34,058 bases of DNA, from the NCBI GenBank assembly GCA_024742305.1, contig JANSYQ010000035.1, positions 1 to 34,058 on the forward strand, in the 5' to 3' direction. Of the stretch, positions 1 to 13,687 are shown in pieces (within the stretch, counting starts at the first letter, position 1; every line of letters starts with the position of its first letter). Under the pieces are notes generated by a model that searched no databases, was not told where the DNA came from, and saw only the letters and a program-made list of their open reading frames with translations. This stretch comes from a bacterium (GTDB lineage: Bacteria; Bacteroidota; Bacteroidia; Flavobacteriales_D; Crocinitomicaceae). A program made the position numbers and the translations under genes.

Positions 1-111
1 TACAATCCCGTTCCGGGCTTTTCTCCGGGTCCTGCTGACCACCATTCTGGAATTGGACCAAGAGCGCTTTCCGGATCGGGACCTACGCCCATGTGTCCGG
101 AAGCAAGTGAA

Positions 112-1473
112 TCAACGTACCAAGTCAAAGAAACGGTGTCCTTCACATGATAACTCTAATCTTCTTTCATTCCAAATATCTTCAACAGAATTCACGGGAA
201 TTCCCGGAACCCCAGCTCTTGTTCTAACTTGATTCACGTACGCCTGCGCTTGAGATGTATTTCCGTTTTGGTAATGTGCCTCTGCTGCCATCAACAATAC
301 ATCTGCGTAACGAATCATGCGATAGTTCACTGGACTTGTCAAGTCATTATCGGGCAATCCGATTTCTCCTTGACGTTTGATGTACTTGTTGTTGTAGTAT
401 CCTGTGTGTCCACCGCCACCAATAGCGTAGGTAATATCTCCGGGGTTTGCTTGCTGTGCGATAAACGCGTCAATATCCAATATGGTTGCGTCACGACGTG
501 GGTCGATAGGAGAGAAAGCGTCGTACAATTCCTGCGTCGGAAGGTTGTAGCTGTTTCCGTCTCCGTACACGGGTCCGTTGTATTGACGAATTCCTTGAAA
601 TCCAGGTCCGGCATTTCCTTCCAAACAAACCAAACATCCGTAGCTTCCTCCTTCCAATCCTGAGTATTCTACATCGAAGACTGTTTCAGGGTTTCCTTCG
701 TTTGCCGCTGTGAAAAGTGAAGAGTAATCAGCCTCTAGTGCATACAATCCGCTGGAAATTAACAATTCAAATGTTGTAGCTGCCTGGTCAAATTTGTTTT
801 GGTACAAGTACACTTTACCTAGCAATCCGAGTGCTGCACCACGATCTGCACGCCCTTTTGCAGGGGCACCAAAGTTCAAAACAGCAATGGCGTCGTTCAA
901 ATCTGTTTCGATTTGCTCATACACTTCAGCTTTCGTAGCACGTGGTACTTGAAGTGCTTCGTCAACTCCCAATCGCTTGTCAATAATTAACGGCATTCCA
1001 CCGAAGAATTTCACCAATTCGAAGTAATAATAAGCGCGTAAAAATTTTGCTTCTGCCAAGATCAAATCTTTTCCTTCAAAGTCGATGTTGTCTTTGTGCT
1101 CCAAAATGTAATTGGCACGACTTACACCAGCATAGTTCCAACGCATTACGCTTCGAAGCTCGTTGTTCACCCCGCCGTGTGTCATGTTATCAATTTGGTG
1201 AAGTCCTTGTGTATCAAAAACGCTTTCGCCTCCCGCGATTGTATTGTCAGAGGCCATTTCCCCGATCCATACGGACATAAAGGAGGCTTGCAACAAATCG
1301 TAGGCACCAATGAGTGCTCTTTCGTAATCTTCTTCAGTTTGGAAGAAGTTGTCTGCATCTTGTGTGTAGGCTGGATCTACCGAGAGGAATTTCTTACATC
1401 CGGCAGAAGAGAGTCCGATCACTGTAATCAGGATCAGCCCTAGCGCTGTATATGTGAATCTTTTTGCTTTCAT
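112..1473 (-). CDS. SusD/RagB-family outer-membrane glycan-binding lipoprotein, C-terminally truncated
   Basis: This is the surface-exposed substrate-binding partner of the SusC transporter encoded just upstream. The 453-residue frame starts with a lipoprotein signal whose lipobox is LSSAGC (Cys26), followed by the typical SusD opening (KKFLSVDP), TPR-like helices (GLLGKVYLYQNKFDQAATTF, near residues 215-235) and the C-terminal SusD signature ending in GHRFFDLVR. Family members normally run roughly 40-60 residues beyond this motif, but here a TGA follows LVR at once. The start lies 3 bases after the susC stop, so the two are co-transcribed. The truncation sits 111 bases from the window edge. 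In the +1 frame after the stop the DNA reads through to position 1 and contains a PIP motif like that near the end of SusD proteins, so an indel near a contig edge is as likely as a real truncation. The substrate cannot be read from the sequence. Confidence 0.93.
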   Translation of the reverse strand: MKAKRFTYTALGLILITVIGLSSAGCKKFLSVDPAYTQDADNFFQTEEDYERALIGAYDLLQASFMSVWIGEMASDNTIAGGESVFDTQGLHQIDNMTHGGVNNELRSVMRWNYAGVSRANYILEHKDNIDFEGKDLILAEAKFLRAYYYFELVKFFGGMPLIIDKRLGVDEALQVPRATKAEVYEQIETDLNDAIAVLNFGAPAKGRADRGAALGLLGKVYLYQNKFDQAATTFELLISSGLYALEADYSSLFTAANEGNPETVFDVEYSGLEGGSYGCLVCLEGNAGPGFQGIRQYNGPVYGDGNSYNLPTQELYDAFSPIDPRRDATILDIDAFIAQQANPGDITYAIGGGGHTGYYNNKYIKRQGEIGLPDNDLTSPVNYRMIRYADVLLMAAEAHYQNGNTSQAQAYVNQVRTRAGVPGIPVNSVEDIWNERRLELSCEGHRFFDLVR

Positions 1474-1476
1474 GTC

Positions 1477-4400
1477 TTATAGTCTGATTTGTAGTCCTCC
1501 AATAAATGTTCTCGCCTGCGGGTAAATTCCGTAATCCACACCTGCTGAAAGTACGCTTCCTGATCCTACGTCTGGGTCGAATCCGCGGTAACGTGTGAAT
1601 GTCCATAAGTTGTTTACAGAAACGTAAATTCTAACGCGGTCGATATTTGCTTTTGTAATCCATGTAGAAGGCAAACTATAACCCAACTGGAGGTTTCTTA
1701 CGCGAAGGAAATCTCCATCTTCTACATAGTAAGACGAGAATTCTGTGTTACGTGTTGGTCCTGTTGTAAGACGTGGGTGTTCGTTGGATGTTCCCGGTCC
1801 TGTCCAGCGGTCGATTACGTAATCCAATTGGTTGGCGTAAGGCTGCTGACGCTCGAAGTTTCGTATGATTTCCTGACCCAATGCAGCGTAAAGTGTTCCT
1901 GAAATATCCCATCCTTTCCAACGCGCGTTCAATCCGAATCCCATGGTTACGTTTGGAATTGGAGATCCAAGGTTTGTTTTATCTGAATCGTCGCTGAAGT
2001 TGATTACACCGTCGCCGTTTTGATCAACAAAAATCAAGTCTCCCGGTTGAGCGCCCTCTTGCACTACTGGGTGATTGTCAATTTGCTCTTGTGTTTGGAA
2101 GATTCCGGCAGTTTCCAATCCGTGGAAGTAACCGATTTCCTGACCAACTTCGAATCGCGTTGCGGTTACACCACCAACACCAAAGTTTGCTCCTGGAATG
2201 AAATCTACTCCGTCTGGAACCGCAGTTACTTTGTTGTTCAAATAAGTAAAGTTGAAGTTTACGTTTCCAAGTAGGTTACGTCCTTCCTTCTCCTTCAGGT
2301 TGTAGGCCAACTCCAGTTCTACTCCGTTATTGGATACGTTTCCTGCGTTTACGATTGGTGGAAAACCTCCAGGTCCATAGGTTCCAAGAATAGCTGTTAC
2401 GTCTGGCTGGAACAAGAGATCATTCGTGTTTTTGAAGAAGTAGTTCGCAGTAACGTCGAATTGCTTCCAAAATGTCGCATCAACACCAAAGTTGAATTGG
2501 CGCGTAGTCTCCCATTTCAAATCAGGGTTTCCTGCTTTACCAATGGCAACTCCCGGAGTAATTACGTCATCCATTACGTAAACACCTTCACCATTCAAGA
2601 GTGCACGGTAGGCGAAGTTTTCAATTTGATCGTTACCCATGATTCCGTAACTCACGCGTACTTTTGCGAAGTCCATCCACTTGATATCGAAGAAATCTTC
2701 GTCTGATATCAACCAAGCAGCAGATCCAGAAGGGAAGTATCCCCAGCGATTGTTCGGTCCGAATTTGCTCGATCCATCCGCACGAATAACTGCTGAGAAG
2801 AAGTACTTTCTTTTAAGTTGGTATTCACCACGTAAGAAAGCAGAAAGCAATCGCTCTTTAAATTCCCACGAACCAACGTTGTTCAAGAATCCACCTTCTG
2901 CTGTGTTTGCAGAAATATCTGCGAATTCAAGTGAGTTGTTTGGAATTCCAAAGGCAGTTCCGCTCAACGATTCTCCTTTTCTTTGGAAAACGGTGATTCC
3001 GGCAGTTCCCTTCACACGATGATCTTCTTTAAAAGTACGATCATAGTTCATGAAACTTTCGAAAGTAAGGTCAAGGAACGAAGCTCGCTCCTCCCAAACG
3101 GAAGCACCACGCTCAATGAAAACACTGTCTGCAATCTCCACTACTGGTGATTCCAAATCGGCATTGAGTGCAGTATTTGCGAACTTTCCATCCCCGTACC
3201 AAACAAGTGGTGAAAATGCTTTGTTGTCTACAATTGCGTAGTTGTAGTTGAATCGGTTGGTGAATGTCAAATGCTCATTAAAATCATAGATAAATTCTTC
3301 TTTTCCAACGAATTTATCTGCCCAGCTCCAGTTGTATTGGTTCTCAATTTGTGCCACTGGATTAATGATGTCACTTACTTCTTCCAAGTATGAATAGTTT
3401 CCGTCTGATGTGCGAACTGGCTCATTCGGGAATGCGTTGATAGTATTGTACAATACAGATCCGATTCCGTTCTCCGGCAGGGTATTTCGATAATCATGCG
3501 AGAAAAGGAATACGGAATTAAGTCGGAAATTCTTTGCCAACTCCGTGCTTAGATTCAAGCGGGCGTTGTAACGTGAAAAGTGTGCTTTATCGCCACCCAC
3601 AATTCCATCTTGTGTGAAATATCCTAATCCCAATGAGTAACGCGTACTGTTGGAACCTCCTGTCATACTGATGTTATGACTTTGTACTGGAGACGATGTG
3701 AAAACAGAATCTTGCCAATCAGTTCCACGTCCAATGTTTGTGTTGTTGAAAGGAACAGGCTGACCTCCAAACGCAAATGCTTCGTTTTTAATAACCGCAT
3801 ATTCATTTGCTTCTAGTAGATCTAATCGTTTTGCTGTTTCTTGAATTCCGTAATAACCGTTGTACTCAATGGTTGGGTCGGCATTTAAGCGACCTGTTTT
3901 TGTTTCAATTAAGATTACCCCGTTTGCTGCTCGAACTCCGTAAATACCGGCAGTAGCATCTTTCAATACGTTTATTGATTTGATGTCTGAAGGGTTCAAT
4001 GCGTTCAATCCTTCTGCATCATAAACGACTCCGTCAACAAGAATTAGCGGATCATTATCTCCAAAGGTCGAAAGTCCACGAATTCGAATATTGGCAGAAC
4101 CTCCGGGCGATCCTGAGTTGGTGCTAATGTTCACTCCGGCCACTTGACCTTGTAAGGCTTGATCGACGCGGGCTTGATTCATTTTTTCAATGTCTTCGCC
4201 GCCTACTTTCGACGTGGCTCCGGTATATTCTTTTGTGGATGCTTCACCATATCCTACGACAATTACTTGATCCATTTCGCTGATCTCTGAGAACAAGGTC
4301 AGCTTAATGGTTGTTTGTCCATTGACTGGGACTTCTTCCGTAAGGTATCCGTTCAGTCGGAAAACCAAGGTGTCCGTAGCGGGATTTGATACTGGAATTG

Positions 4401-4581
4401 AGAATTTTCCTTCCTCGTCTGTGAAGGTTCCTTGATTTACTCCCTTAATTGCGACAGAAACGAATAATAGTGGTTCTTGCTTGTCGTCAACAACGACACC
4501 TGAAACAACATTTTCCTGCGCATGAACGGTCACGAACCCCAGTAAGAACAAACCGTTCAGAAGAATAGTTTTCAATAGCAT
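1477..4581 (-). CDS. SusC/RagA-family TonB-dependent outer-membrane transporter
   Basis: An outer-membrane beta-barrel that imports oligosaccharides with its SusD lid, powered by TonB-ExbBD. I place the start at the ATG at 4579-4581, giving 1034 residues. The frame runs 16 codons further upstream, but that extension would put hydrophilic residues before the signal peptide (LLKTILLNGLFLLGF...VHAQ) and would cover the likely promoter. In order: signal peptide; carboxypeptidase-regulatory-like domain (about residues 24-100); TonB-box-like DQVIVVGYG; plug domain with the SusC signature (DIKSINVLKDATAGIYGVRA); and a long barrel ending in an aromatic-rich strand with terminal RL. Length is normal for the family. 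It is followed by susD after 3 bases, and has its own promoter downstream of the terminator of the regulator gene, so it can be expressed apart from the GH3-regulator unit. Confidence 0.96.
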   Translation of the reverse strand: MLLKTILLNGLFLLGFVTVHAQENVVSGVVVDDKQEPLLFVSVAIKGVNQGTFTDEEGKFSIPVSNPATDTLVFRLNGYLTEEVPVNGQTTIKLTLFSEISEMDQVIVVGYGEASTKEYTGATSKVGGEDIEKMNQARVDQALQGQVAGVNISTNSGSPGGSANIRIRGLSTFGDNDPLILVDGVVYDAEGLNALNPSDIKSINVLKDATAGIYGVRAANGVILIETKTGRLNADPTIEYNGYYGIQETAKRLDLLEANEYAVIKNEAFAFGGQPVPFNNTNIGRGTDWQDSVFTSSPVQSHNISMTGGSNSTRYSLGLGYFTQDGIVGGDKAHFSRYNARLNLSTELAKNFRLNSVFLFSHDYRNTLPENGIGSVLYNTINAFPNEPVRTSDGNYSYLEEVSDIINPVAQIENQYNWSWADKFVGKEEFIYDFNEHLTFTNRFNYNYAIVDNKAFSPLVWYGDGKFANTALNADLESPVVEIADSVFIERGASVWEERASFLDLTFESFMNYDRTFKEDHRVKGTAGITVFQRKGESLSGTAFGIPNNSLEFADISANTAEGGFLNNVGSWEFKERLLSAFLRGEYQLKRKYFFSAVIRADGSSKFGPNNRWGYFPSGSAAWLISDEDFFDIKWMDFAKVRVSYGIMGNDQIENFAYRALLNGEGVYVMDDVITPGVAIGKAGNPDLKWETTRQFNFGVDATFWKQFDVTANYFFKNTNDLLFQPDVTAILGTYGPGGFPPIVNAGNVSNNGVELELAYNLKEKEGRNLLGNVNFNFTYLNNKVTAVPDGVDFIPGANFGVGGVTATRFEVGQEIGYFHGLETAGIFQTQEQIDNHPVVQEGAQPGDLIFVDQNGDGVINFSDDSDKTNLGSPIPNVTMGFGLNARWKGWDISGTLYAALGQEIIRNFERQQPYANQLDYVIDRWTGPGTSNEHPRLTTGPTRNTEFSSYYVEDGDFLRVRNLQLGYSLPSTWITKANIDRVRIYVSVNNLWTFTRYRGFDPDVGSGSVLSAGVDYGIYPQARTFIGGLQIRL

Positions 4582-4614
4582 AAGTATAGACTTTCGGTAA
4601 ATATACACAATTAA

Positions 4615-4627
4615 GGTACAAAGTACC
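4615..4627 (-). promoter_or_regulatory. Predicted susC promoter -7 box inside a 13-bp palindrome
   Basis: On the minus strand TACTTTG (4619-4625) matches the Bacteroidota -7 consensus TAnnTTTG with one base less between the halves, and lies about 38 bases before the susC ATG, leaving a leader of about 30 nt. It is embedded in the perfect palindrome GGTAC-AAA-GTACC (4615-4627), which could be an operator overlapping the promoter. No convincing -33 box was found. The start site is inferred. Confidence 0.5.
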
Positions 4628-4702
4628 AAAAGTGTCTTAAATTTTATTTTTCCCTGTTGGTAAAAGGTTTAGCTTAAGTTACGGAGGTATTCTGAATTAA
4701 TC

Positions 4703-4734
4703 AAAAAAAGGAGAACTTAGTCGTCCTCCTTTTT
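4703..4734 (-). terminator. Rho-independent terminator of the regulator/GH3 unit
   Basis: AAAAAGGAG (4705-4713) pairs perfectly with CTCCTTTTT (4726-4734) around a 12-nt loop. Read on the minus strand, the stem ends in a run of seven Ts (4703-4709). It lies just after the stop of the Nudix-like regulator and before the susC promoter, so it separates the kinase-GH3-regulator unit from susCD. Confidence 0.75.
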
Positions 4735-4754
4735 AAAAATTCTTTTGGTTGGAA

Positions 4755-5453
4755 TTACATTCTGAACAAGTAATTTTCTTCCTCTACCAACTGCTTATAT
4801 CTTTCTTCATCAAAGCGGAACAATTTCGCGGGGCGGTGTTTTACGTTCTTTTGCTTTTCATTCAAGGTTACCAACGGAATGGATTTGATTTTCTTTCGGA
4901 AGTTGGCCTTGTCCATCTCAACGTCGTACGCATACTCATACAATTGCTGCATTTCATTTAGTGCAAACTTTTCTGGCAAGAGGTTGAAACAAATAGGCTC
5001 GCTGTGCAATTTCTTTTTCAAATCCTCATACGTTGACATTACGATTTCACGGTGATCGAAAGCTAGGTTGGGAACTTCGTTAAGTGGCGCCCACATAACT
5101 TCTTCTGCCCAAGAATCAGCTTCGGCTTTGAGGTCATCAATTCGAACCAATGCGAAATAAGCACAGGTAATTACACGTCCTTGGGGGTGTCTGCCCGGAT
5201 TACCAAAGGTTTGTCCTTGATGCAAATCTACGCCTTCAAGTTTTGTTAGTTCGGTCAAAATTCTTGATGCAGCATCGGGTAGGTCTTCATCCGGATAGAC
5301 TAAATCTCCGGGAATTGCCCATTCACCGGAAAATGGTTCCATTGCACGTTTGATCAATAATACGTGAATCTTGCCGTCTTTGTATCCGAAAATAGCGCAA
5401 TCAAGCGAGAAGGAGTACGAAAAGAAGTGGTCGAATTTTATTTTGTAGGACAT
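4755..5453 (-). CDS. NrtR-like transcriptional regulator (Nudix-like sensor plus winged helix)
   Basis: A 232-residue protein of the NrtR type. Residues about 10-140 form a Nudix-like fold; residues about 150-232 form a winged helix with the family pattern LLPEKFALNEMQQLYE, NFRKKI and a closing RPAKLFRFD. The Nudix box is degenerate: where an active enzyme has REUxEE, this protein has RILTEL (residues 64-69), and the first conserved Glu is Asp55. Two catalytic glutamates are therefore lost, which fits a ligand-sensing rather than hydrolytic role. In Bacteroidota, NrtR-family proteins beside sugar genes act as repressors of those genes (family knowledge, e.g. arabinose AraR). It starts 4 bases after the GH3 stop and is in the same transcript. 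I infer that it senses a sugar or sugar-phosphate and controls this locus; the ligand is unknown. Confidence 0.88.
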   Translation of the reverse strand: MSYKIKFDHFFSYSFSLDCAIFGYKDGKIHVLLIKRAMEPFSGEWAIPGDLVYPDEDLPDAASRILTELTKLEGVDLHQGQTFGNPGRHPQGRVITCAYFALVRIDDLKAEADSWAEEVMWAPLNEVPNLAFDHREIVMSTYEDLKKKLHSEPICFNLLPEKFALNEMQQLYEYAYDVEMDKANFRKKIKSIPLVTLNEKQKNVKHRPAKLFRFDEERYKQLVEEENYLFRM

Positions 5454-5457
5454 ACAA

Positions 5458-7758
5458 TTACTTTAATTCAAAGTCTGCAGATAGCGTTTCTATTGTAGCA
5501 CTGAACATCCCCGGTTCACATATCCATTCGTCATCTCTTCCGTAAAACTGAAGATCTTCTGTAGCCAGCACAAATTTAACAGTCTTTTTGTCTTTTGCAC
5601 CTAATGTTACTTTTTCGAATGCGTTTAATGACTTTACGGCTGGTGTCATAGAGGCAAAATGATCTGAAATATACAGTTGCACCACCTCTTTTCCTTCACG
5701 GCTTCCAGTATTGGTAACATCCACGGTAATTACAATAGAGTCGCCTTCGGTAAGCGTGTTTTTATCCAAGGTTAAATTTGAATATTCAAAGGTCGTGTAA
5801 CTCAAGCCATAGCCGAACTCCCATTGTGGATCAAAAGCATCAAAATGATTTGCTTTGTGACGCGCCACACTTCTTGGATGATCGTAAAATTCGATTTGCC
5901 CGTCGTATTTCTGATAGGTGTACGGCAATTTTCCGGAGAAATTTTCCTCTCCGTAAATCAATTGCGCAAGAGCCTCACCACCAAAATCTCCTGGTAAGTA
6001 AGCTTGAACGATAGCAGAAGCATCGTCTACAATTTCACGAATAATGCGTGGGCGACCCTCAATCATTACGAGCACCACAGGCTTCCCCGTTGCGTAAGCC
6101 ATTTTTGCTAATTCGATTTGTGCTGAGTCAAGATTCAGAGAACGAATATCTCCCGGTTTTTCTGTTGATGGGAATTCTCCGAGACACAATAGAATCACAT
6201 CCGACTCTTCCGCTTTGGATATGAAATCTTCTGTATCGGAAAGTTTAGATGCTTCGAATCCTTCATCCATGTAGACTTCCGCACCTTGACTGAAGAGAAC
6301 ATTTTCGGTTCCTACATACGCTTCAATGGCCTCACGAACGGAAAATCGACCTTTTGTATTAAACAAAGGATTGTCTCCCTGCCAAGTATGTGTCCAAGCG
6401 CCATTCAAAAAGATCAAATTGTTGGATGTGGGTCCGGTTACAAGCACTTTTTGACTTTTTTTCAAAGGTAGTACTCCATCGTTTTCCAAAAGTGTAATGG
6501 ACTCCAATGCACTTTCCAATGCAAGTTGATGCATTTTTTCCGAGCCGAAATCAACGTACTTTTTCGCTTGATTCATTCGCTTTTCGTACAGACCAACAAT
6601 GTATTTTACACGCAAAATTCTTCGGACAGCATCATCCAAACGATCCGGAGTAATACTCCCTTCGTTCACTGCCTCAATCATCAATTTGCAGTACTCTTGA
6701 TATTGTGGCGCCAATGGAACCATACTCATATCGACTCCTGCGTTGATTGCGTTTATGATTCCCTCTTTTAACGTTGCCGCAGTTCGATGAACGGTATGTA
6801 GCATGATGAAATCCTCCCAATCTGAAACGGCAAATCCTTCAAATCCCCACTCGTTTTTCAAGGTTTCGGTGAGCAACTCGTAATTTTCATGCCCGGGAAT
6901 TCCATTCACAACTCCGCTGTTGATCATCACTGTCAATGCTCCTGCTTCTACCGCCGCTTTGAATGGGGGCAAATACAATTCTTGCATGTACTTTTCCGGA
7001 ATCCATGCGGGTGTTCTATCGCGACCGCTAGACGGGTGACTATACCCAACAAAATGTTTCATGCAGGCAGCCACGTGCTCAGAGTTAATTCCTCCCTTAC
7101 CTTGATATCCACAAACAATTGCCTTGCCCATTTCTGAAACGAGCAGTGGATCTTCACCCAAGGTTTCAAATGTTCTCGACCACAAAGGCTGACGTCCCAA
7201 ATCCAACACCGGCGAAAAATTCCAGTGGATTCCTGATGCACGCGTTTCGTAAGCGGTTGCCTGTCCAAACTGCATTGCCAATCGAGGGTTCCAAGTAGCG
7301 GCCAACCCAATTTCTTGAGGGAAAAGCGTACCACCAACAGTGTAGTTTACTCCGTGAATGGCATCAATCCCATACAAAATCGGAGCTTTCGCATCTTTAC
7401 TTTGGTACGGGGCATGAACACCTTCCATTACGCCTTCCCATTCTTCGAGAGAAAGTGTTTTCCAACCAACGTTCAATACAGAACCGACTCCATATTCTAC
7501 AATGGCTTCTTGTACTTTTGCCGGGTCGATTTCAACGGGTTCGATGAGTTTGCCTTCTGCATCTTTTTTCAAAAGAACATCCAAGGTAATTTGACACGTT
7601 TGTCCGACTTTTTCCTCTACACTCATTTTGGCCAAATCTGCCTCAATTTGTGCTTCGATCTCAGGTGTTGACAGTGACTTCTTATTTTGCGCAATCAGCG
7701 ACGAAGAGATGAGTAGTCCTGCAAGAAAGACAACCATTCGTGTTTTCATAATCTTCAT
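5458..7758 (-). CDS. Secreted GH3 beta-glucosidase (exo-beta-glucanase type)
   Basis: Glycoside hydrolase family 3, 766 residues, full length. An N-terminal signal peptide ends near SLIAQ (residue 24), so the enzyme acts in the periplasm or outside. Residues about 35-395 are the GH3 barrel with GEDP (201-204), KHF (234-236) and the catalytic nucleophile Asp313 in FAVSDWED. Residues about 420-640 are the second domain, with the likely acid/base Glu533 in GEFPSTEKPGD, the arrangement seen in ExoI/ExoP-type beta-glucan exohydrolases. A fibronectin-III-like domain (about 645-766) closes the protein. The start may be the ATG at 7758 or the one at 7749; the signal peptide is intact from either. It stands between a sugar kinase and a regulator and close to susCD, so it probably releases glucose from imported or surface beta-glucosides. 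Linkage specificity (laminarin-like 1,3, or 1,4) is not decidable here. Confidence 0.95.
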   Translation of the reverse strand: MKIMKTRMVVFLAGLLISSSLIAQNKKSLSTPEIEAQIEADLAKMSVEEKVGQTCQITLDVLLKKDAEGKLIEPVEIDPAKVQEAIVEYGVGSVLNVGWKTLSLEEWEGVMEGVHAPYQSKDAKAPILYGIDAIHGVNYTVGGTLFPQEIGLAATWNPRLAMQFGQATAYETRASGIHWNFSPVLDLGRQPLWSRTFETLGEDPLLVSEMGKAIVCGYQGKGGINSEHVAACMKHFVGYSHPSSGRDRTPAWIPEKYMQELYLPPFKAAVEAGALTVMINSGVVNGIPGHENYELLTETLKNEWGFEGFAVSDWEDFIMLHTVHRTAATLKEGIINAINAGVDMSMVPLAPQYQEYCKLMIEAVNEGSITPDRLDDAVRRILRVKYIVGLYEKRMNQAKKYVDFGSEKMHQLALESALESITLLENDGVLPLKKSQKVLVTGPTSNNLIFLNGAWTHTWQGDNPLFNTKGRFSVREAIEAYVGTENVLFSQGAEVYMDEGFEASKLSDTEDFISKAEESDVILLCLGEFPSTEKPGDIRSLNLDSAQIELAKMAYATGKPVVLVMIEGRPRIIREIVDDASAIVQAYLPGDFGGEALAQLIYGEENFSGKLPYTYQKYDGQIEFYDHPRSVARHKANHFDAFDPQWEFGYGLSYTTFEYSNLTLDKNTLTEGDSIVITVDVTNTGSREGKEVVQLYISDHFASMTPAVKSLNAFEKVTLGAKDKKTVKFVLATEDLQFYGRDDEWICEPGMFSATIETLSADFELK

Positions 7759-7788
7759 TTGAGTATTTATTCCACTAAGTATTATAGA

Positions 7789-8637
7789 CTACGCTTGCTC
7801 CAACAATCTCACGTGATAGTTCACTAGATTTTGCAAGGGTCTACGAACGATGCGACCCAACCGGATTCCATTGTCTGCGCAAACTACTCGCAATTCATCT
7901 TGTAGCAGATCAGAAATTGAACCAACAAAATTCACCTCACACGTGGTATGTTCTTTGAAGCACTTAACGTGTACATCAATAAACTCTTGAAAGCCTTTTC
8001 GGATAAGCTCTTGTGCGTAGGGAAGATCCTTATTTTCAATGAGTACCGGCATTAATGAAGCGATAAAAACGTTGGCTCCTGGTTTTTGATACACGCGCTC
8101 AACGATAGTTGCTTTGTTGAGTCCCATTTGAAAAAATGCATCGTGCATGGGTGCAGGCAACTTTTTGTACAAATAGTCTGCGAGCATGCGTTTACCAAAC
8201 CAATTTCCGCTTCCTTCATCGCCAAGAATGTGCCCAAGTGCGGGAACTTCTTCTCGAACAGTCAAACCGTCAAAATAACAACTGTTGGATCCCGTACCTA
8301 GAATGCAAGCAATCTCAGGTTCGCCATTGTAACAAGCAAATGCGCTGGCATTCAAATCATGATCTACGGTAATCATTGCATTGCGAAAAAACGCAGCAAG
8401 TCCGCTTTCGATTACAGCATTTAATTCAGGACTGGAACATCCAGCTCCGTAAAAATGCAATTGCTGCACGTCATCCTTAACGGACACGAGTGCACTATTT
8501 CCTTCCAACGCTTCTAAAATATCGGATTTTGAATGAAAATATGGATTGAAACCTTTTGTATTTGAGATAGTTTCATTACCATTATGTAAAATCATCCAAT
8601 CCGCCTTCGTTGATCCGCTTTCGACAACTATTAGCAT
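7789..8637 (-). CDS. BadF/BadG/NAGK-family sugar kinase
   Basis: An ASKHA-fold ATP-dependent kinase related to N-acetylglucosamine kinase. I choose the ATG at 8635-8637 (282 residues), because MLIVVESGSTKADW is the family's phosphate-1 loop at the true N-terminus; the longer open frame adds 40 residues unlike the family and would swallow the promoter. Further family motifs are the hinge DHDLNASAFAC, the adenosine/phosphate-2 element ILGTGSNSC and GHILGDEGSG. It is the first gene of the minus-strand unit, 30 bases before the GH3 gene. From this context it may phosphorylate the glucose released by the GH3 enzyme and so feed the divergent zwf operon. GlcNAc or glucosamine are the alternative substrates from family knowledge. 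Confidence 0.87.
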   Translation of the reverse strand: MLIVVESGSTKADWMILHNGNETISNTKGFNPYFHSKSDILEALEGNSALVSVKDDVQQLHFYGAGCSSPELNAVIESGLAAFFRNAMITVDHDLNASAFACYNGEPEIACILGTGSNSCYFDGLTVREEVPALGHILGDEGSGNWFGKRMLADYLYKKLPAPMHDAFFQMGLNKATIVERVYQKPGANVFIASLMPVLIENKDLPYAQELIRKGFQEFIDVHVKCFKEHTTCEVNFVGSISDLLQDELRVVCADNGIRLGRIVRRPLQNLVNYHVRLLEQA

Positions 8638-8669
8638 CTTATCGTTCGTATTTTGAGGTTTGAGTCCTT

Positions 8670-8677
8670 CAAATGTA
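8670..8677 (-). promoter_or_regulatory. Predicted -7 box of the kinase-GH3-regulator unit
   Basis: TACATTTG on the minus strand is an exact match to the Bacteroidota -7 consensus TAnnTTTG. It sits about 33 bases before the kinase ATG, giving a leader of about 26 nt. It overlaps GTACAAA (8675-8681), a 7-mer also present in the palindrome at the susC promoter. No good -33 box was seen. Confidence 0.5.
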
Positions 8678-8692
8678 CAAAAAAATATCTTA

Positions 8693-8723
8693 TTGTATAT
8701 TTTACAAAAAGTATATATCTTTG
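8693..8723 (+). promoter_or_regulatory. Predicted zwf operon promoter (-33 TTG, -7 TATCTTTG)
   Basis: TATCTTTG (8716-8723) matches TAnnTTTG exactly, with TTG (8693-8695) 20 bases upstream as a -33 element, which is close to the usual Bacteroidota spacing. The leader to the zwf ATG at 8740 would be only about 10 nt. The promoter lies back to back with that of the sugar kinase in a 102-bp intergenic region, a natural place for a shared operator. Confidence 0.6.
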
Positions 8724-8739
8724 ACCAAAGTCGTTTTAC

Positions 8740-10191
8740 ATGAATACCCAAACACATAGCTTACGCATCAAGGATTTCAATTTAGTGATCTTTGGGGGAA
8801 ATGGCGATCTTTCCAAGCGAAAGATTATTCCTGCTTTATTCCACAGATTTGCTGCTGGACAGCTCAAGGTGGATTTTGAAATTTTCTGTTTGAGTCGATC
8901 TCCGCAGGATCGCGCTGCCTTCCTGAAGGAAATTGAAGGGTTTTTGGGGAAAGTGGACGCGAAAAAAGTGAAAGCTTTTTTTGAACATTTATTCATTTTA
9001 GAGGTTCCAAAGAATAGTTCTGAACACTACGGAGAATTGAAAAGTAGGTTAGAGGCGCATCCGGGAAGACAGTCCATTTTTTACTTTTCGGTTCCATCAG
9101 CGGCATTTTCTGAAATCTGTACGGCCCTGAAAGAAACTTCTCTGAACAAAGAGAATAGTAAGGTGGTGTTGGAAAAGCCGCTAGGACATAATTTAAAGTC
9201 GAGCGAGGAGATTAATAATATCATCGCGGGTGCTTTCAAAGAGCGGCAGATTTTCCGTATCGATCACTACCTCGGTAAAGAAACGGTTCAAAACCTCATG
9301 GTATTACGTTTCGCCAATCATTTGTTCGAACGTGCTTGGAATGCTGAAAACATTGAGAATATTCAAATTACGGTAGCCGAAAGTTTGGGTGTAGAAAAAC
9401 GAGCAGGGTACTACGATAAAACAGGAGCCTTACTCGATATGGTTCAAAACCATCTGCTTCAATTGTTGTGTTTGATTGCAATGGAACCGCCTTCGAGCTT
9501 GAATCCAGATACGGTGCGAAACGAAAAGCAGAAGGTGTTAGAATCACTGCGACCTTTTACAAAGAAAAGTATAGAAACGGATATTGTTCGGGGACAATAT
9601 ACACGAGGTTCGTCCAACGGTAAAAAGCAGAATTCATACTTAGAGGACATCGACGCGTATGATTCAGAAACGGAAACTTTCGTGGCGTTGAAAACCTACA
9701 TTGATAATTGGCGATGGAAAAATACGCCCATTTATCTGCGAACTGGTAAGCGCATGAAAAAACGCTATTCCGACATTGTCATCAACTTCAAGGAACTGCC
9801 GCACAACATTTTTCAGGATACACAGCATCCGCTTCGAAACAAATTGATCATTCGACTGCAGCCTGAAGAGCGTATCGAGTTGGTGCAATTGAGTAAAATT
9901 CCGGGTCCAGGTGGTTATCGCTTCAAACCAATTTCCTTGAAACTGGACTTTATCGACTCGTTCAAGGACCGTATGCCAGATGCTTATGAACGATTGATCA
10001 TGGATGTTATTCGTGGAAATCAAACTTTGTTCATGCGCTATGACGAATTAGCTGCCGCATGGAGATGGATTGAATCAATTACAGACCATTGGAGAAAATG
10101 TACTCCGCTCAAATTGTATGAATCTGGGACCTGGGGACCTGGAGATGATATCTTGGAAGACAATACAGAATGGAAAACATCACCAAAATGA
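8740..10191 (+). CDS. zwf: Glucose-6-phosphate 1-dehydrogenase
   Basis: Oxidises glucose-6-phosphate to 6-phosphogluconolactone with NAD(P)+, the first step of both the oxidative pentose phosphate and ED routes. The 483-residue length is normal. The N-terminal Rossmann fold has the dinucleotide loop GGNGDLSKRK (residues 19-28; many homologues have GASGDL), then EKPLGH (145-150) and the substrate-binding signature RIDHYLGKE (173-181). The C-terminal half carries the family elements YLRTGKR and YERL. It is the first gene of zwf-pgl-edd-eda, all in the same direction, and its stop overlaps the next start as ATGA. The position directly before the ED genes suggests that its main role here is the ED route. 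Confidence 0.97.
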   Translation: MNTQTHSLRIKDFNLVIFGGNGDLSKRKIIPALFHRFAAGQLKVDFEIFCLSRSPQDRAAFLKEIEGFLGKVDAKKVKAFFEHLFILEVPKNSSEHYGELKSRLEAHPGRQSIFYFSVPSAAFSEICTALKETSLNKENSKVVLEKPLGHNLKSSEEINNIIAGAFKERQIFRIDHYLGKETVQNLMVLRFANHLFERAWNAENIENIQITVAESLGVEKRAGYYDKTGALLDMVQNHLLQLLCLIAMEPPSSLNPDTVRNEKQKVLESLRPFTKKSIETDIVRGQYTRGSSNGKKQNSYLEDIDAYDSETETFVALKTYIDNWRWKNTPIYLRTGKRMKKRYSDIVINFKELPHNIFQDTQHPLRNKLIIRLQPEERIELVQLSKIPGPGGYRFKPISLKLDFIDSFKDRMPDAYERLIMDVIRGNQTLFMRYDELAAAWRWIESITDHWRKCTPLKLYESGTWGPGDDILEDNTEWKTSPK

Positions 10192-10847
10192 GACATGATT
10201 TTGCATCAAAAGAAGAACTGGTAACTGCCTTCACTCCATGGTGTTTGGATATTTTGAGCGAATCCATTGACACTTTTGGAGAAGCACGTATGTTACTCTC
10301 CGGTGGAGGAACTCCCGGTCCTGCGTATGCGAAAATGAACGAAGATTGCACCTTCTTGGATCAATTGGAAATTGGCTTGGTTGATGAGCGTTTTGTCGGA
10401 TTGGAAAGCGACTTCAGCAATGAAAAGCTTATCCGCACCTCTTTTTCAAATGCGCCGGATACGCAAATCAAGGGAATGGTGCACAACTTAGAAGATTATG
10501 CCGGTAATCTTCGATTACTGGAAAGTGAATACCGTCATTTTACGCAAAGAACCGACATGGTCATTCTTGGAATGGGACCTGACGGACATACAGCTTCCAT
10601 TTTTCCTGATGACAAACCATCGGCAGAAGCCCTTACCACCGATGCCTACTTTATGAATACCAATGCACCTGCTCATCCAACACAGCGAATCACGTGTTCA
10701 ATAGAGCTTATTCGAAACGCTAGAAACATTGCATTGATTATAACTGGTGCTCAAAAATTAGAAGTACTGGAAAACAAAACGCTACAGTTACCTATTCATA
10801 CGGCACTTGAAAAATGCCGAAACATTAACATTTTTTACGCTGAATAA
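10188..10847 (+). CDS. pgl: 6-phosphogluconolactonase
   Basis: Hydrolyses 6-phosphogluconolactone to 6-phosphogluconate (DevB/NagB-like fold). I prefer the ATG at 10188 (219 residues), which overlaps the zwf stop as ATGA; an ATG six codons earlier, at 10170, is also open. Family motifs are LLSGGGTPGPAY (sugar-phosphate binding), LVDERFVG with the Asp-Glu-Arg core, and MGPDGHTASIFP containing the His of the active site. Its stop overlaps the edd start as TAATG, so translation is probably coupled along the operon. Confidence 0.95.
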   Translation: MRHDFASKEELVTAFTPWCLDILSESIDTFGEARMLLSGGGTPGPAYAKMNEDCTFLDQLEIGLVDERFVGLESDFSNEKLIRTSFSNAPDTQIKGMVHNLEDYAGNLRLLESEYRHFTQRTDMVILGMGPDGHTASIFPDDKPSAEALTTDAYFMNTNAPAHPTQRITCSIELIRNARNIALIITGAQKLEVLENKTLQLPIHTALEKCRNINIFYAE

Positions 10848-12643
10848 TGGTACACAAAAAGATAGAAGAAATAACCGAACGTATTCGTAAACGAAGTGAG
10901 AAAGCTCGTGCGGCATACGTGGCGACAAACGAATACAATTTTAAAAATCGGAAGTCGCGCGGACAGTTGAGCTGTGGTAATCTTGCCCACGGATTTGCTG
11001 GCTGCGATGCCCATGAAAAACCGCTAATCGCAGAAGGTGTTGAACCCAACTTGGGAATAATTACCGCCTATAACGACATGCTTTCGGCACACAAGCCCTA
11101 CGAGCGCTATCCGGATGAACTCCGTGGATATGCTCGTGAAATGAATGCAACGATTCAAGTAGCCGGAGCAACACCAGCCATGTGTGATGGTGTAACGCAA
11201 GGGCAAGAGGGAATGGATCTCTCGTTGCTAAGTCGTGATGTTATTGCGCTCTCGGCGGCCGTTGGACTTTCGCACGACATGTACGATGGAGTTGTTAACC
11301 TCGGGATTTGCGATAAAATTGTTCCCGGTTTGATGATCGGAAATTTGAGTTTTGGACATTTTCATTCCCTGTTCTTACCGGGTGGTCCAATGCCTAGCGG
11401 AATTTCAAACGAGGAAAAAGCACGCATTCGACAAGATTTCGCAGAGGGAAAAATTACCCGTGAGGAATTATTGAAGGGAGAGTCCGATTCGTATCATTCA
11501 CCGGGTACGTGTACGTTCTATGGTACTGCCAACAGTAATCAAATGCTGATGGAAATCATGGGAATGCAGTTGCCGGGGTCTAGTTTTGTAAATCCGGGTA
11601 CTCCGATGCGAAATGCCTTGAATCGACATGCGATAAAGGTATTGTTGAACAATATCCGAAACAAAGATTTTGATACAACGATAGGACAAATCATCGATGA
11701 AAAAAGCATCGTGAACGGAATTATTGGTTTGCTTGCCACAGGCGGGTCCACGAATCATACCATCCACTTGATTGCCATCGCAAGTGCTGCTGGAATCATC
11801 ATCAATTGGGATGATTTTTCCGATTTAGCAGAGGTTGTTCCATCGCTTTGTAAAGTCTATCCGAACGGAGCAGCAGATGTAAATCACTTCCATGCGGCAG
11901 GAGGAATGGCGTTCGTTATGCATACACTTTTGGAAGAAGGGTTGCTACATGAAGACGTGCGTACGATTATCGGAAAGGGATTGAAACAATTTACACAAGA
12001 GCCCAAGTTGGAGGATGGTGAAATTGTATACCGTGAAGGCCCTAAAGCATCGTTAAATGAGAGCATTGTACGTTCGGTAAGTAATCCGTTCCAAAAAACC
12101 GGAGGACTCAAGGTATTGAAAGGGAACCTCGGAAATGCTGTCATTAAGACGTCGGCAGTTGCTCCTGAGAATCACATAGTGGAAGCCGAAGCTATTGTTT
12201 TTGACGATCAGGATGATTTACTGAAAGCCTTCAAAGCAGGGGAGTTGGACAAGGATTTCATCGCCGTTATTCCGTTCCAAGGACCAAAGCAAAAGGGAAT
12301 GCCTGAATTGCACAAGCTGACGCCTTCATTAACCGTGCTGCAAAAACGCGGATTCAAGGTCGGTTTGGTAACAGACGGCCGAATGTCGGGAGCATCGGGA
12401 AAAGTGCCTGCTGCAATTCACGTGGTGCCTGAAGCTGCTTGCGGTGGACTCATCGGAAAGGTGAAAACAGGGGACAAAATCACCTTGGACGCAGTTAACG
12501 GAGATCTGAAATGTCATGCAAGTGATTTAGAATCCCGCCTATCACGCTCTGTCGAATACCAAAATCAATCTCATGGTAGACCTTTGTTTGATCGAATGCG
12601 AAGTTTGATTACCAATAGTGAAGCTGGAGCTAGTTTCCTTTAA
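10847..12643 (+). CDS. edd: 6-phosphogluconate dehydratase (Entner-Doudoroff)
   Basis: Converts 6-phosphogluconate to 2-keto-3-deoxy-6-phosphogluconate (KDPG) and is the committing ED enzyme. It is a 598-residue IlvD/Edd-family protein of normal length. The Edd-specific N-terminus [12 protein letters not shown] (residues 42-53) separates it from plain IlvD. Likely iron-sulfur cluster cysteines are Cys113 ([11 protein letters not shown]), Cys155 (GICDKIVPG) and Cys222 ([11 protein letters not shown]). [18 protein letters not shown] near the C-terminus is the family's conserved active-site segment. The oxygen-sensitive cluster is expected from the family, not shown by sequence alone. The gene overlaps the pgl stop by one base and is followed by eda. 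Confidence 0.97.
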
Positions 12644-12653
12644 AAAGAACGAA

Positions 12654-13217
12654 ATGATACAGAATAATATTGAAAGCGTATTGAAGAACAACAGCCGCAT
12701 TCCCGTGGCAACCATTTCTAAAATGGAACAGGTTGATCTTTACTACGAAAAATTGAAAGCACAAGGAATTTCATGTATTGAAATCACCCTTAGAAGCGAC
12801 ATTGCGTGGGATGCCATTGCGATGTTCAAGGAGAAATACGGAGACGAATTTCAAGTTGGGGTGGGTACCATTGTATCACCGGATGATATTCTCAATTGCG
12901 TAAAACTGAAGGTGGATTTCATGGTGAGTCCTGGTTTGACAACTTCCATGATTCAACAATTTGATTTCAGTGGAATTCCATTCTTACCCGGCGTTTCTAC
13001 TCCGAGTGAAATTATCCGTGGAATTGATTTGGGCTGGCAATACTTTAAGTTTTTTCCGGCGCATTTATTCGGTGGAGCGAAAGCCTTAGAAACGTACAGT
13101 GGCATTTTCAAAGATGTACGATTTTGTCCAACTGGCGGAATCAATGCTGATAACTACGAGGATTACCTCGCTTTAGACAATGTAATGTCTGTCGGCGGTA
13201 GCTGGCTGTTGAAATAA
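12654..13217 (+). CDS. eda: KDPG/KHG aldolase (Entner-Doudoroff)
   Basis: Splits KDPG into pyruvate and glyceraldehyde-3-phosphate, completing the ED pathway. I choose the ATG at 12654 (187 residues), 10 bases after the edd stop, because it gives an N-terminus aligned with known Eda proteins; the frame is open from another ATG at 12618 inside edd, which would add 12 residues. Class I aldolase features are all present: catalytic Glu43 and Arg47 in CIEITLR, the Schiff-base Lys132 in YFKFFPA, and the phosphate-binding CPTGGI and SVGGSW. It is the last gene of the operon, and the long hairpin at 13228-13337 begins 10 bases after its stop. Confidence 0.96.
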   Translation: MIQNNIESVLKNNSRIPVATISKMEQVDLYYEKLKAQGISCIEITLRSDIAWDAIAMFKEKYGDEFQVGVGTIVSPDDILNCVKLKVDFMVSPGLTTSMIQQFDFSGIPFLPGVSTPSEIIRGIDLGWQYFKFFPAHLFGGAKALETYSGIFKDVRFCPTGGINADNYEDYLALDNVMSVGGSWLLK

Positions 13218-13227
13218 ACGATTACAA

Positions 13228-13337
13228 TTTAGACGCTGAAAATTACCGGGCAACTAAAATGAAAGGTACCAAATACGTCCATTTGATCTTTCTTAGAAAT
13301 GTTTTAGTTGATAGTTGTTCGGTAGTTTTCGTCTAAA
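13228..13337 (+). other. 110-nt long stem-loop after eda (possible 3' UTR structure)
   Basis: Nearly the whole stretch folds on itself. UUUAGACG (13228-13235) pairs with 13330-13337. 13239-13254 pairs with 13314-13329 at 16 of 16 positions when G-U is allowed. UAAAA (13255-13259) pairs with 13302-13306, GAAAGGU (13261-13267) with 13286-13292, and CAAAU (13270-13274) with 13281-13285 around a 6-nt loop. The non-Watson-Crick pairs are all G-U on the plus strand, so the fold is better as plus-strand RNA than as minus-strand RNA. It could be a terminator-like or stabilising 3' end of the ED operon mRNA, or a small RNA. No U-run follows directly. I know of no named family that it matches. Confidence 0.6.
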
Positions 13338-13460
13338 ATCTCCTTGTTTTTCTCCATCAACAAATAGTGTCGAATCACGACTCTCGAAAACGTATTTAAT
13401 ACATCCCGTTCGAAGCGTAATTGCTTGTTTTTTTAGAAATACAAACACAGTTGTGAGTGT

Positions 13461-13660
13461 ACTACAAAGGCACTAAGGAAAGTGTGTAAAAGTATTTGAA
13501 AGAGGTGCACTATACCATGACAGAGTCATAAACCATAGTGTACTTCAAGAGTCTTGGGCTTTAAACTATTCTCCGTGCGCTCCGTGCCTTCGTTCCTTTG
13601 CCAAAGCCTTGCTTTGCTGAAGCTTCGCGAAGGCATGGCTACGGCGCAGGCGCTGTGGTG
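13461..13660. repeat. Intergenic palindromic repeat region, no gene
   Basis: ACAAAGGCACTAAGGAA (from 13463) and the inverted relative in 13571-13600 (CTCCGTGCGCTCCGTGCC...) flank an inner hairpin at 13496-13548: TTGAA/TTCAA, GTGCACTAT/ATAGTGTAC with one G-U, and a perfect ATGAC-AGA-GTCAT core. After it comes a GC-rich block (13571-13660) with GCCTT/AAGGC, GAAGCTTC and a final GTGGTGAAAAAAA. The wording of the arms (AAAGGCACTAAGG, CTCCGTGCCTTCG, GTGGTGAAAA) resembles dispersed intergenic repeats that I recall from many bacterial genomes; that link is from memory. No reading frame of interest crosses it. Confidence 0.5.
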
Positions 13661-13684
13661 AAAAAAAGACTGCATTCGCAGCAA
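13660..13684 (-). terminator. Possible weak terminator after the amidohydrolase pair
   Basis: On the minus strand, just after the stop at 13688, CTGC-GAAT-GCAG forms a short stem with a four-base loop, followed by a run of seven Ts broken only by TC at its start. The stem is only 4-5 bp, so this is tentative. Confidence 0.35.
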
Positions 13685-13687
13685 AGA

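Follow-up and report, generated by a model that had tools for sequence, protein, structure and literature searches.

Bacteroidota are leading glycan degraders, and their polysaccharide utilization loci (PULs) have mostly been described up to the release and import of sugar. The laminarin PULs of marine Flavobacteriia carry GH16 and GH3 enzymes, SusCD, a surface lipoprotein and a transporter. The locus analysed here has the same components but adds a sugar kinase and zwf-pgl-edd-eda, the operon of the Entner-Doudoroff (ED) pathway. It reaches pyruvate, in a phylum in which full 6-phosphogluconate dehydratase (Edd) was very rare in the sample searched. It lies in a member of the Crocinitomicaceae (assembly GCA_024742305.1; 4.09 Mb in 56 contigs, G000) on contig JANSYQ010000035.1 (C14), the whole of which, 34,058 bases, is called the window. 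In the available text of four papers (PMC6298971, PMC6246565, PMC11345257, PMC13188888) the term "laminarin" occurs and "Entner-Doudoroff" does not. A search of open-licence papers, by title and beginning of abstract, gave no zwf-pgl-edd-eda joined to susCD among the matches listed.

Other described systems resemble parts of the locus. According to the available text of PMC5698469, the carrageenan regulon of Zobellia galactanivorans likewise combines a PUL regulon with sugar catabolism to pyruvate and glyceraldehyde-3-phosphate; it differs in that 3,6-anhydro-D-galactose is degraded in four steps via 2-keto-3-deoxy-galactonate, not glucose via Zwf and Edd. The edd operons of Proteobacteria such as Pseudomonas are likewise linked ED genes serving glucose (PMC11544825, in the part available). 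Unlike the present operon, they are not joined to SusCD. Their regulator, HexR, belongs to another family than the Nudix-type regulator of the window. BtAraR and XylR of Bacteroides, as described in the accessible part of PMC4666351, are likewise NrtR-family Nudix repressors; their Nudix box is degenerate, and their semipalindromic operators lie at sugar operons and at susCD. BtAraR is an arabinose-responsive repressor that binds arabinose, whereas the window regulator lies in a beta-glucan/ED locus and has the candidate operator TTGTA-N5-TACAA.

The locus is probably a beta-glucan (laminarin-type) PUL that shares its control with an ED operon and a glucokinase of its own. The structure itself is confirmed and recurs; the physiology is predicted. 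GH16, GH3, SusCD, a PKD surface lipoprotein, an SSF symporter and the kinase are on one side, zwf-pgl-edd-eda is on the other, and a palindrome is common to several promoters. Open reading frames and family profiles place susD, susC, the Nudix regulator, GH3 and the kinase on the minus strand and zwf, pgl, edd and eda on the plus strand (Table 1). In the predicted scheme the glucan would be cut and imported, GH3 would release glucose, the SSF symporter would take it up and the kinase would make glucose-6-phosphate, which Zwf-Pgl-Edd-Eda would convert to pyruvate and glyceraldehyde-3-phosphate. The AraR-like Nudix protein would hold both sides repressed via TTGTA-N5-TACAA until bound by a sugar derived from the glucan. 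The arrangement recurs across the family and is therefore more than chance.

Table 1. Features of the locus, in window coordinates
Feature	Position	Strand	Evidence
Probable assembly artefact at contig edge	1..125		repeats part of the interior of a PKD lipoprotein-like gene (contig C48); cuts susD short
susD-like lipoprotein, 3' end missing	112..1473	-	Pfam SusD_RagB 44-233 of 297; SusD-like_3
susC-like TonB-dependent transporter	1477..4581	-	TIGR04056 805.7 bits
Weak candidate operator AGGTACAAAGTACCA	4614..4628		~33 bp upstream of susC; position weight matrix (PWM) score 9.8
Terminator-like hairpin, nudR/susC	4703..4739	-	70-base stretch folds at -17.8 kcal/mol; similar hairpin in L037
Nudix-type regulator (nudR), NrtR/AraR family	4755..5453	-	PF21906, PF19368, PF00293; best PDB BtAraR 5bs6, E 7.8e-48
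Palindrome TTGTAGGACATACAA, GH3/nudR junction	5443..5457		PWM 11.1; overlaps coding sequence, hence outside promoter-match count
GH3 beta-glucosidase-like enzyme, N-terminal signal-like sequence	5458..7758	-	PF00933, PF01915, PF14310; best PDB BoGH3B 5jp0
ED-linked sugar kinase, predicted glucokinase	7789..8637	-	profile matches to 1zxo and MurK-type kinases; H93 before catalytic Asp; co-occurs with edd
Candidate operator TTGTATATTTTACAA	8693..8707		in 102-bp divergent promoter; position conserved by eye in 8 loci; PWM training site
zwf, glucose-6-phosphate dehydrogenase	8740..10191	+	TIGR00871 531.6 bits
pgl, 6-phosphogluconolactonase	10170..10847	+	PF01182 134.1 bits; TIGR01198 118.7 bits, slightly under 124.45 cut-off
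edd, 6-phosphogluconate dehydratase	10847..12643	+	TIGR01196 918 bits, cut-off 708.25
eda, KDPG aldolase	12654..13217	+	TIGR01182 180.3 bits; motifs

Zwf, Pgl, Edd and Eda are all present and intact by profiles and motifs, as an earlier note on this DNA had held. Pgl is above its Pfam cut-off. The intact motifs are GGNGDL and RIDHYLGKE in Zwf, GMGPDGHTASIFP in Pgl, and EITLR and KFFPA in Eda. From these genes a carbon flux from glucose through KDPG is predicted. The divergence of the kinase and the operon over 102 bp, also claimed earlier, is exact (8638-8739) when the kinase starts at Met 8637; this start was chosen because relatives align from it, although the mechanical open reading frame begins at 8757. 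The probable true starts of susC (judged by eye) and eda are 4581 and 12654.

On the uptake side susC and susD are adjacent, as the earlier note had it, but susD is cut short, ending early at FFDLVR*. The early end is most likely an assembly artefact, because window positions 1-125 recur, with 100% identity over 125 bp, within a PKD-protein gene of contig C48 (L211:12769-12893). In addition, C14:3-128 matches residues 129-170 of the PKD protein in locus L037 of G038, a genome of the window's genus, where that gene comes after a 492-residue SusD-like reading frame. Encoded at the end of C48 are the PKD lipoprotein, a GH16 enzyme, a T9SS-sorted protein similar to CBM48, an SSF symporter, an isomerase of bacterial PGI type and an MGS-like protein. 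In G038 such genes share one contig with susCD and the ED operon, running up to susD in the contiguous order MGS-PGI-SSF-T9SS/CBM48-GH16-PKD protein-SusD-SusC-NudR-GH3-kinase / zwf-pgl-edd-eda. By analogy, C48 would continue the C14 locus, and if the two contigs adjoin, the earlier note saw only part of the uptake side. The glycan-degrading enzymes linked to susCD are thus GH3 in the window and GH16 on C48, the latter contiguous with susCD in G038, and the two families fit a beta-1,3-glucan (laminarin) PUL with predicted substrates. The last ~100 bases of C48 (L211) are G+C-rich by eye, unlike the rest, and are likely a second assembly artefact. In L211:6850-8203, L213:13066-14413, L041 and L038 the symporter beside the glucan locus comes together with an MGS-like protein and a PGI-type isomerase.

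Full Edd, taken as 727 bits or more, was found in 61 of 150 family genomes; a tally of 87/150 at E 0.001 also includes IlvD-like matches of ~59-201 bits. Gene order was compared in 57 linkage loci from 56 of these 61 genomes. Five genomes with short edd contigs (G017, G051, G068, G081, G089) were left out, the kinase contigs of G051 and G081 being used in place of their edd contigs. In 29 of the 57 edd loci the kinase faces zwf head to head, with or without a Nudix gene between them, the genomes being related and not independent. In the remainder 7 contigs are too short and 21 have no kinase there, 16 of them in genus g22. Where the contig reaches far enough, the head-to-head layout is present in 28/33 loci outside g22 and in 1/17 inside it. 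In L110, L149, L153 and L171 kinase and ED genes are adjacent and share one strand. The earlier note had proposed this comparison and named separate, independently expressed gene sets in relatives as counting against its reading; the result stands with the note outside g22, and against it, in part, in g22.

The kinase occurs in two forms of the locus. Form A, with an A-type Nudix regulator and GH3 beside the kinase, is present in the window, L036, L037, L038, L040, L041, L042, L043 and the split contigs L091/L092. A GH16 relative was found in the window's own genome (C48), L037/L213, L038, L040, L042, L043 and L091, and was not found in L036, where the contig begins, or in L041. In form B the kinase and a second Nudix type (38-44% identity to that of the window) lie beside GH13-GH65-HAD-MFS genes; this content was verified by Pfam in L069 only, the other loci matching by gene-length pattern. 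Loci of the form B pattern also occur without ED genes in the stretch examined (e.g. L105, L108, L113), which points to the kinase-Nudix pair as a part of glucan loci in its own right. G038 holds two complete zwf-pgl-edd-eda operons, one in a form A locus of beta-glucan type (L037) and one in a form B locus of alpha-glucan type (L049). Their Edd proteins have 92% and 71% identity to that of the window and lie on separate branches. GAPDH genes flank the clusters in L042 and L069. A tentative wider reading is that the ED operon, kinase and Nudix sensor form a cassette that attaches to different (beta- and alpha-) glucan loci, each polymer bringing its own route to pyruvate, and that in g22 this route may have replaced phosphofructokinase glycolysis. 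As an observation apart, several g22 genomes (e.g. L071, L072, L080) have zwf-pgl-edd without eda next to edd.

The regulator of the window has a Nudix-like domain and an NrtR-type winged helix, with PF00293, PF21906 and PF19368 all over their cut-offs. Its Nudix box is degenerate, RILTEL replacing REUXEE (motif from the available text of PMC4666351). The protein is probably a sensor rather than an enzyme, because the box is broken.

A palindrome resembling TTGTA-N5-TACAA was seen by eye in the kinase/zwf gap of 8 loci; 7/8 fit a degenerate pattern and L042 is imperfect. A PWM built from these 8 gap sites only was scanned over 12 loci with the training sites excluded, L213 being trimmed to avoid overlap with L037. 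At a score of at least 11 it gave 19 matches in 9,737 promoter bases vs 14 in 224,404 other bases, and at 14 or more 12 promoter matches vs 1 elsewhere. Forty permuted matrices gave a mean of 1.45 promoter matches (maximum 5) and a mean of 9.6 elsewhere. C48 holds two of the promoter matches, one preceding the SSF symporter and one preceding the T9SS/CBM48 protein. Further matches precede susC in L045 and lie in L043 between GH3 and a sugar transporter. Since promoters of symporter, T9SS and transporter genes, and of susC in L045, share the palindrome, one regulon is likely.

In the window the degenerate palindrome has two matches vs 0.05 expected, and the site at the GH3/nudR junction is one of them. 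The site upstream of susC is the third of six window matches scoring at least 8; its counterpart at L037:7777 scores 10.7, and both are under the cut-off of 11 and outside the 19. Among five further kinase loci, no degenerate palindrome was found beside the kinase in L039, L046, L054 and L070, and L059 has one near a 459-residue gene. Loci with the A-type regulator have the palindrome next to the kinase, and none was found there in 13 loci with a B-type regulator alone, as expected if the A-type regulator binds the palindrome. TTGTA-N5-TACAA is thus a candidate operator of the AraR-like Nudix regulator, and the sequence evidence for a control link is stronger from relatives than from the window itself. 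The exact palindrome has 16 sites in the window's own genome, two of them in the window, vs 5 for a reversed control pattern.

A number of points weigh against a glucan PUL and ED operon under common control. The window's own susC site scores just 9.8, and 0/19 of the held-out promoter matches are in the window (two are on C48 of the same genome). Operator matches from related loci do not count as independent. In L045 the palindrome is found at kinase/zwf and at susC, yet there is no Nudix gene in the stretch examined. A genome-wide regulon drawn from the exact palindrome was rejected: of the 14 sites outside the window 7 are inside reading frames, and their neighbours, judged by eye without a family search, have no clear sugar theme. 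The terminator-like hairpin, which was absent from the output of a pattern-based terminator scan, divides nudR from susC, and susCD is therefore probably transcribed apart from kinase-GH3-nudR. The glucan substrates are read from enzyme family. The genome has a phosphofructokinase (PFK; C9:325-1152), making Embden-Meyerhof-Parnas glycolysis possible. As to the kinase, its homologues with known activity act on N-acetylmuramic acid (MurNAc) or N-acetylglucosamine (GlcNAc), 6/61 edd genomes have no kinase match, and a ROK-family protein, possibly another glucokinase, is also encoded (C1:29761-30666). The wider claim is weakened by g22, where ED genes and kinase are apart in 16/17 evaluable loci.

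The hairpin ahead of susCD, the weak susC site and the g22 loci would be expected if the PUL and the ED operon were chance neighbours, independently expressed. This is unlikely, given the head-to-head layout in most evaluable loci outside g22 and the palindrome common to held-out promoters. The single regulated pathway predicted in the earlier note is upheld in part, by a linkage conserved in much of the family and a palindrome recurring at promoters; ED flux, the kinase substrate and the effector of the regulator belong to the predicted part.

The kinase gave no Pfam match at E 0.001, and matches the N-acetylglucosamine kinase model NF046058 at 31.7 bits, under the 370-bit cut-off. Its solved relatives (1zxo and 1zbs among them) bear the names of MurNAc or GlcNAc kinases, of an ATPase and of hypothetical proteins. 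MurK of Tannerella forsythia is of the same kinase family with the same ATP motifs; the available text of PMC10465942 ties its MurNAc use to the small residues T94 and S133-P134-L135, and its N-acetyl pocket to F34, F35 and F137. The pocket was aligned in 19 kinases chosen by us; MurK was not in the alignment, its numbering being transferred via 1zxo and 8oqw. The ED-linked clade has His (His93) at the Thr94 position in 19/19, Ala or Ser at P134, Tyr or His at F137 (Ala133 and His/Tyr136 in the window numbering), and at F34 Tyr in 15/19 and Phe in 4/19. The window kinase, with His93 and Pro132-Ala133-Leu134, thus differs from MurK at the residues that mark a MurNAc kinase. From these differences MurNAc would be poorly fitted and glucose compatible, which is no proof. 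Kinase presence was set at a match of at least 200 bits, a threshold of our choosing with the next lower match at 115.7; by it, the kinase is present in 55/61 edd genomes vs 3/89 others, which are related and not independent. Context and pocket together suggest that the kinase is a glucokinase.

Alternatively the kinase could act on GlcNAc or MurNAc, with glucose-6-phosphate for the ED enzymes coming from elsewhere, e.g. the ROK protein. The amino-sugar kinases among its closest solved relatives, the weak NagK match and the ROK gene agree with this, but pocket residues unlike those of 1zxo and 8oqw, and the lack of amino-sugar genes among the Pfam-scanned neighbours, make it improbable. The same clade also lies beside GH13-GH65-HAD-MFS in L069, where free glucose would be an expected product. 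Elsewhere in the family, kinase relatives of 24-33% identity adjoin a recurring gene set recognised by gene length.

The operon could also serve mainly to supply NADPH for biosynthesis or stress, ED acting as disposal and the Nudix regulator sensing NAD-derived ADP-ribose like a classical NrtR. gnd was detected in 0/150 family genomes (9/14 control genomes were positive); therefore 6-phosphogluconate has no known oxidative pentose-phosphate exit, and Zwf would be the sole enzyme of that branch. The equivalog of ADP-ribose-responsive NrtR (NF050029) matches the regulator at 135.7 bits, far below its cut-off of 400. By score the regulator lies nearer to the sugar-binding BtAraR (166 bits) than to SoNrtR (3gz5, 77 bits), and its candidate operators are at glucan genes; an NADPH role is given little probability beside control by a glucan-derived sugar.

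PFK was found in 112/150 family genomes. Among 114 good genomes it was missing in 23/50 that bear edd vs 5/64 that do not (Fisher P 4.9e-6); outside g22 the counts are 7/32 vs 5/64 (P 0.097), and in g22 no PFK was detected in 16/18. PFK loss as a family-wide partner of ED was rejected, the signal being carried mainly by g22. In many genomes pfkA is near a contig end, and some absences may therefore be assembly gaps.

In the order sample Edd was found in 60/249 genomes, 59 of which exceed the cut-off; 13 of the 60 lie outside the family. The phylum sample gave 2/345 Bacteroidota at a threshold of 1e-200, both from the family, whose share of the 345 is not stated. ED as a general trait of Bacteroidota was thus not borne out, though 13 order-sample genomes outside the family have Edd. 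Full Edd marks this lineage. The earlier note's proposal of a lineage using ED agrees with this distribution, but the window's own genome keeps PFK and therefore need not depend on ED. The best 80 of 569 named kinase loci are mostly labelled Crocinitomicaceae, Cryomorphaceae or Flavobacteriales metagenome-assembled genomes, few being labelled otherwise (e.g. Pedobacter, Chitinophagales, Aureispira), and 12 of these 80 also hold edd in the fetched stretch. The available part of PMC10655711 reports KEGG-identified ED genes for every Flavobacterium genome of that study, which conflicts with the equivalog-level Edd result; perhaps Eda alone was counted there. In that of PMC4620155, Proteobacteria are the only bloom genomes reported with ED genes.

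For the cell, consumption of the polymer and breakdown of its glucose may form a single programme. The ED pathway yields less ATP than glycolysis, has a lower protein cost and can give NADPH. The arrangement therefore allows a direct test of ATP yield against cheap catabolism in glucan specialists. Concrete candidates for testing are the regulator, the operator and the kinase, and attention is drawn to genus g22, with PFK mostly undetected.

Some observations concern the rest of the genome and window. In a family search for ILVD_EDD_N in G000, Edd was the sole match and no IlvD was seen; branched-chain amino acid synthesis may therefore be missing. Generic scans of the window were uninformative, both for promoters (37 vs 31.7, sd 6.3, in shuffles) and for terminators (12 vs 17.9, sd 4.2). 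Downstream of eda is a long gap, 13218-13687; the segment 13151-13400, reaching back into the end of eda, folds at -67.6 kcal/mol, a value without a shuffle control. A single reading frame at 24580-26856 combines a Mur ligase middle domain with alanine racemase domains.

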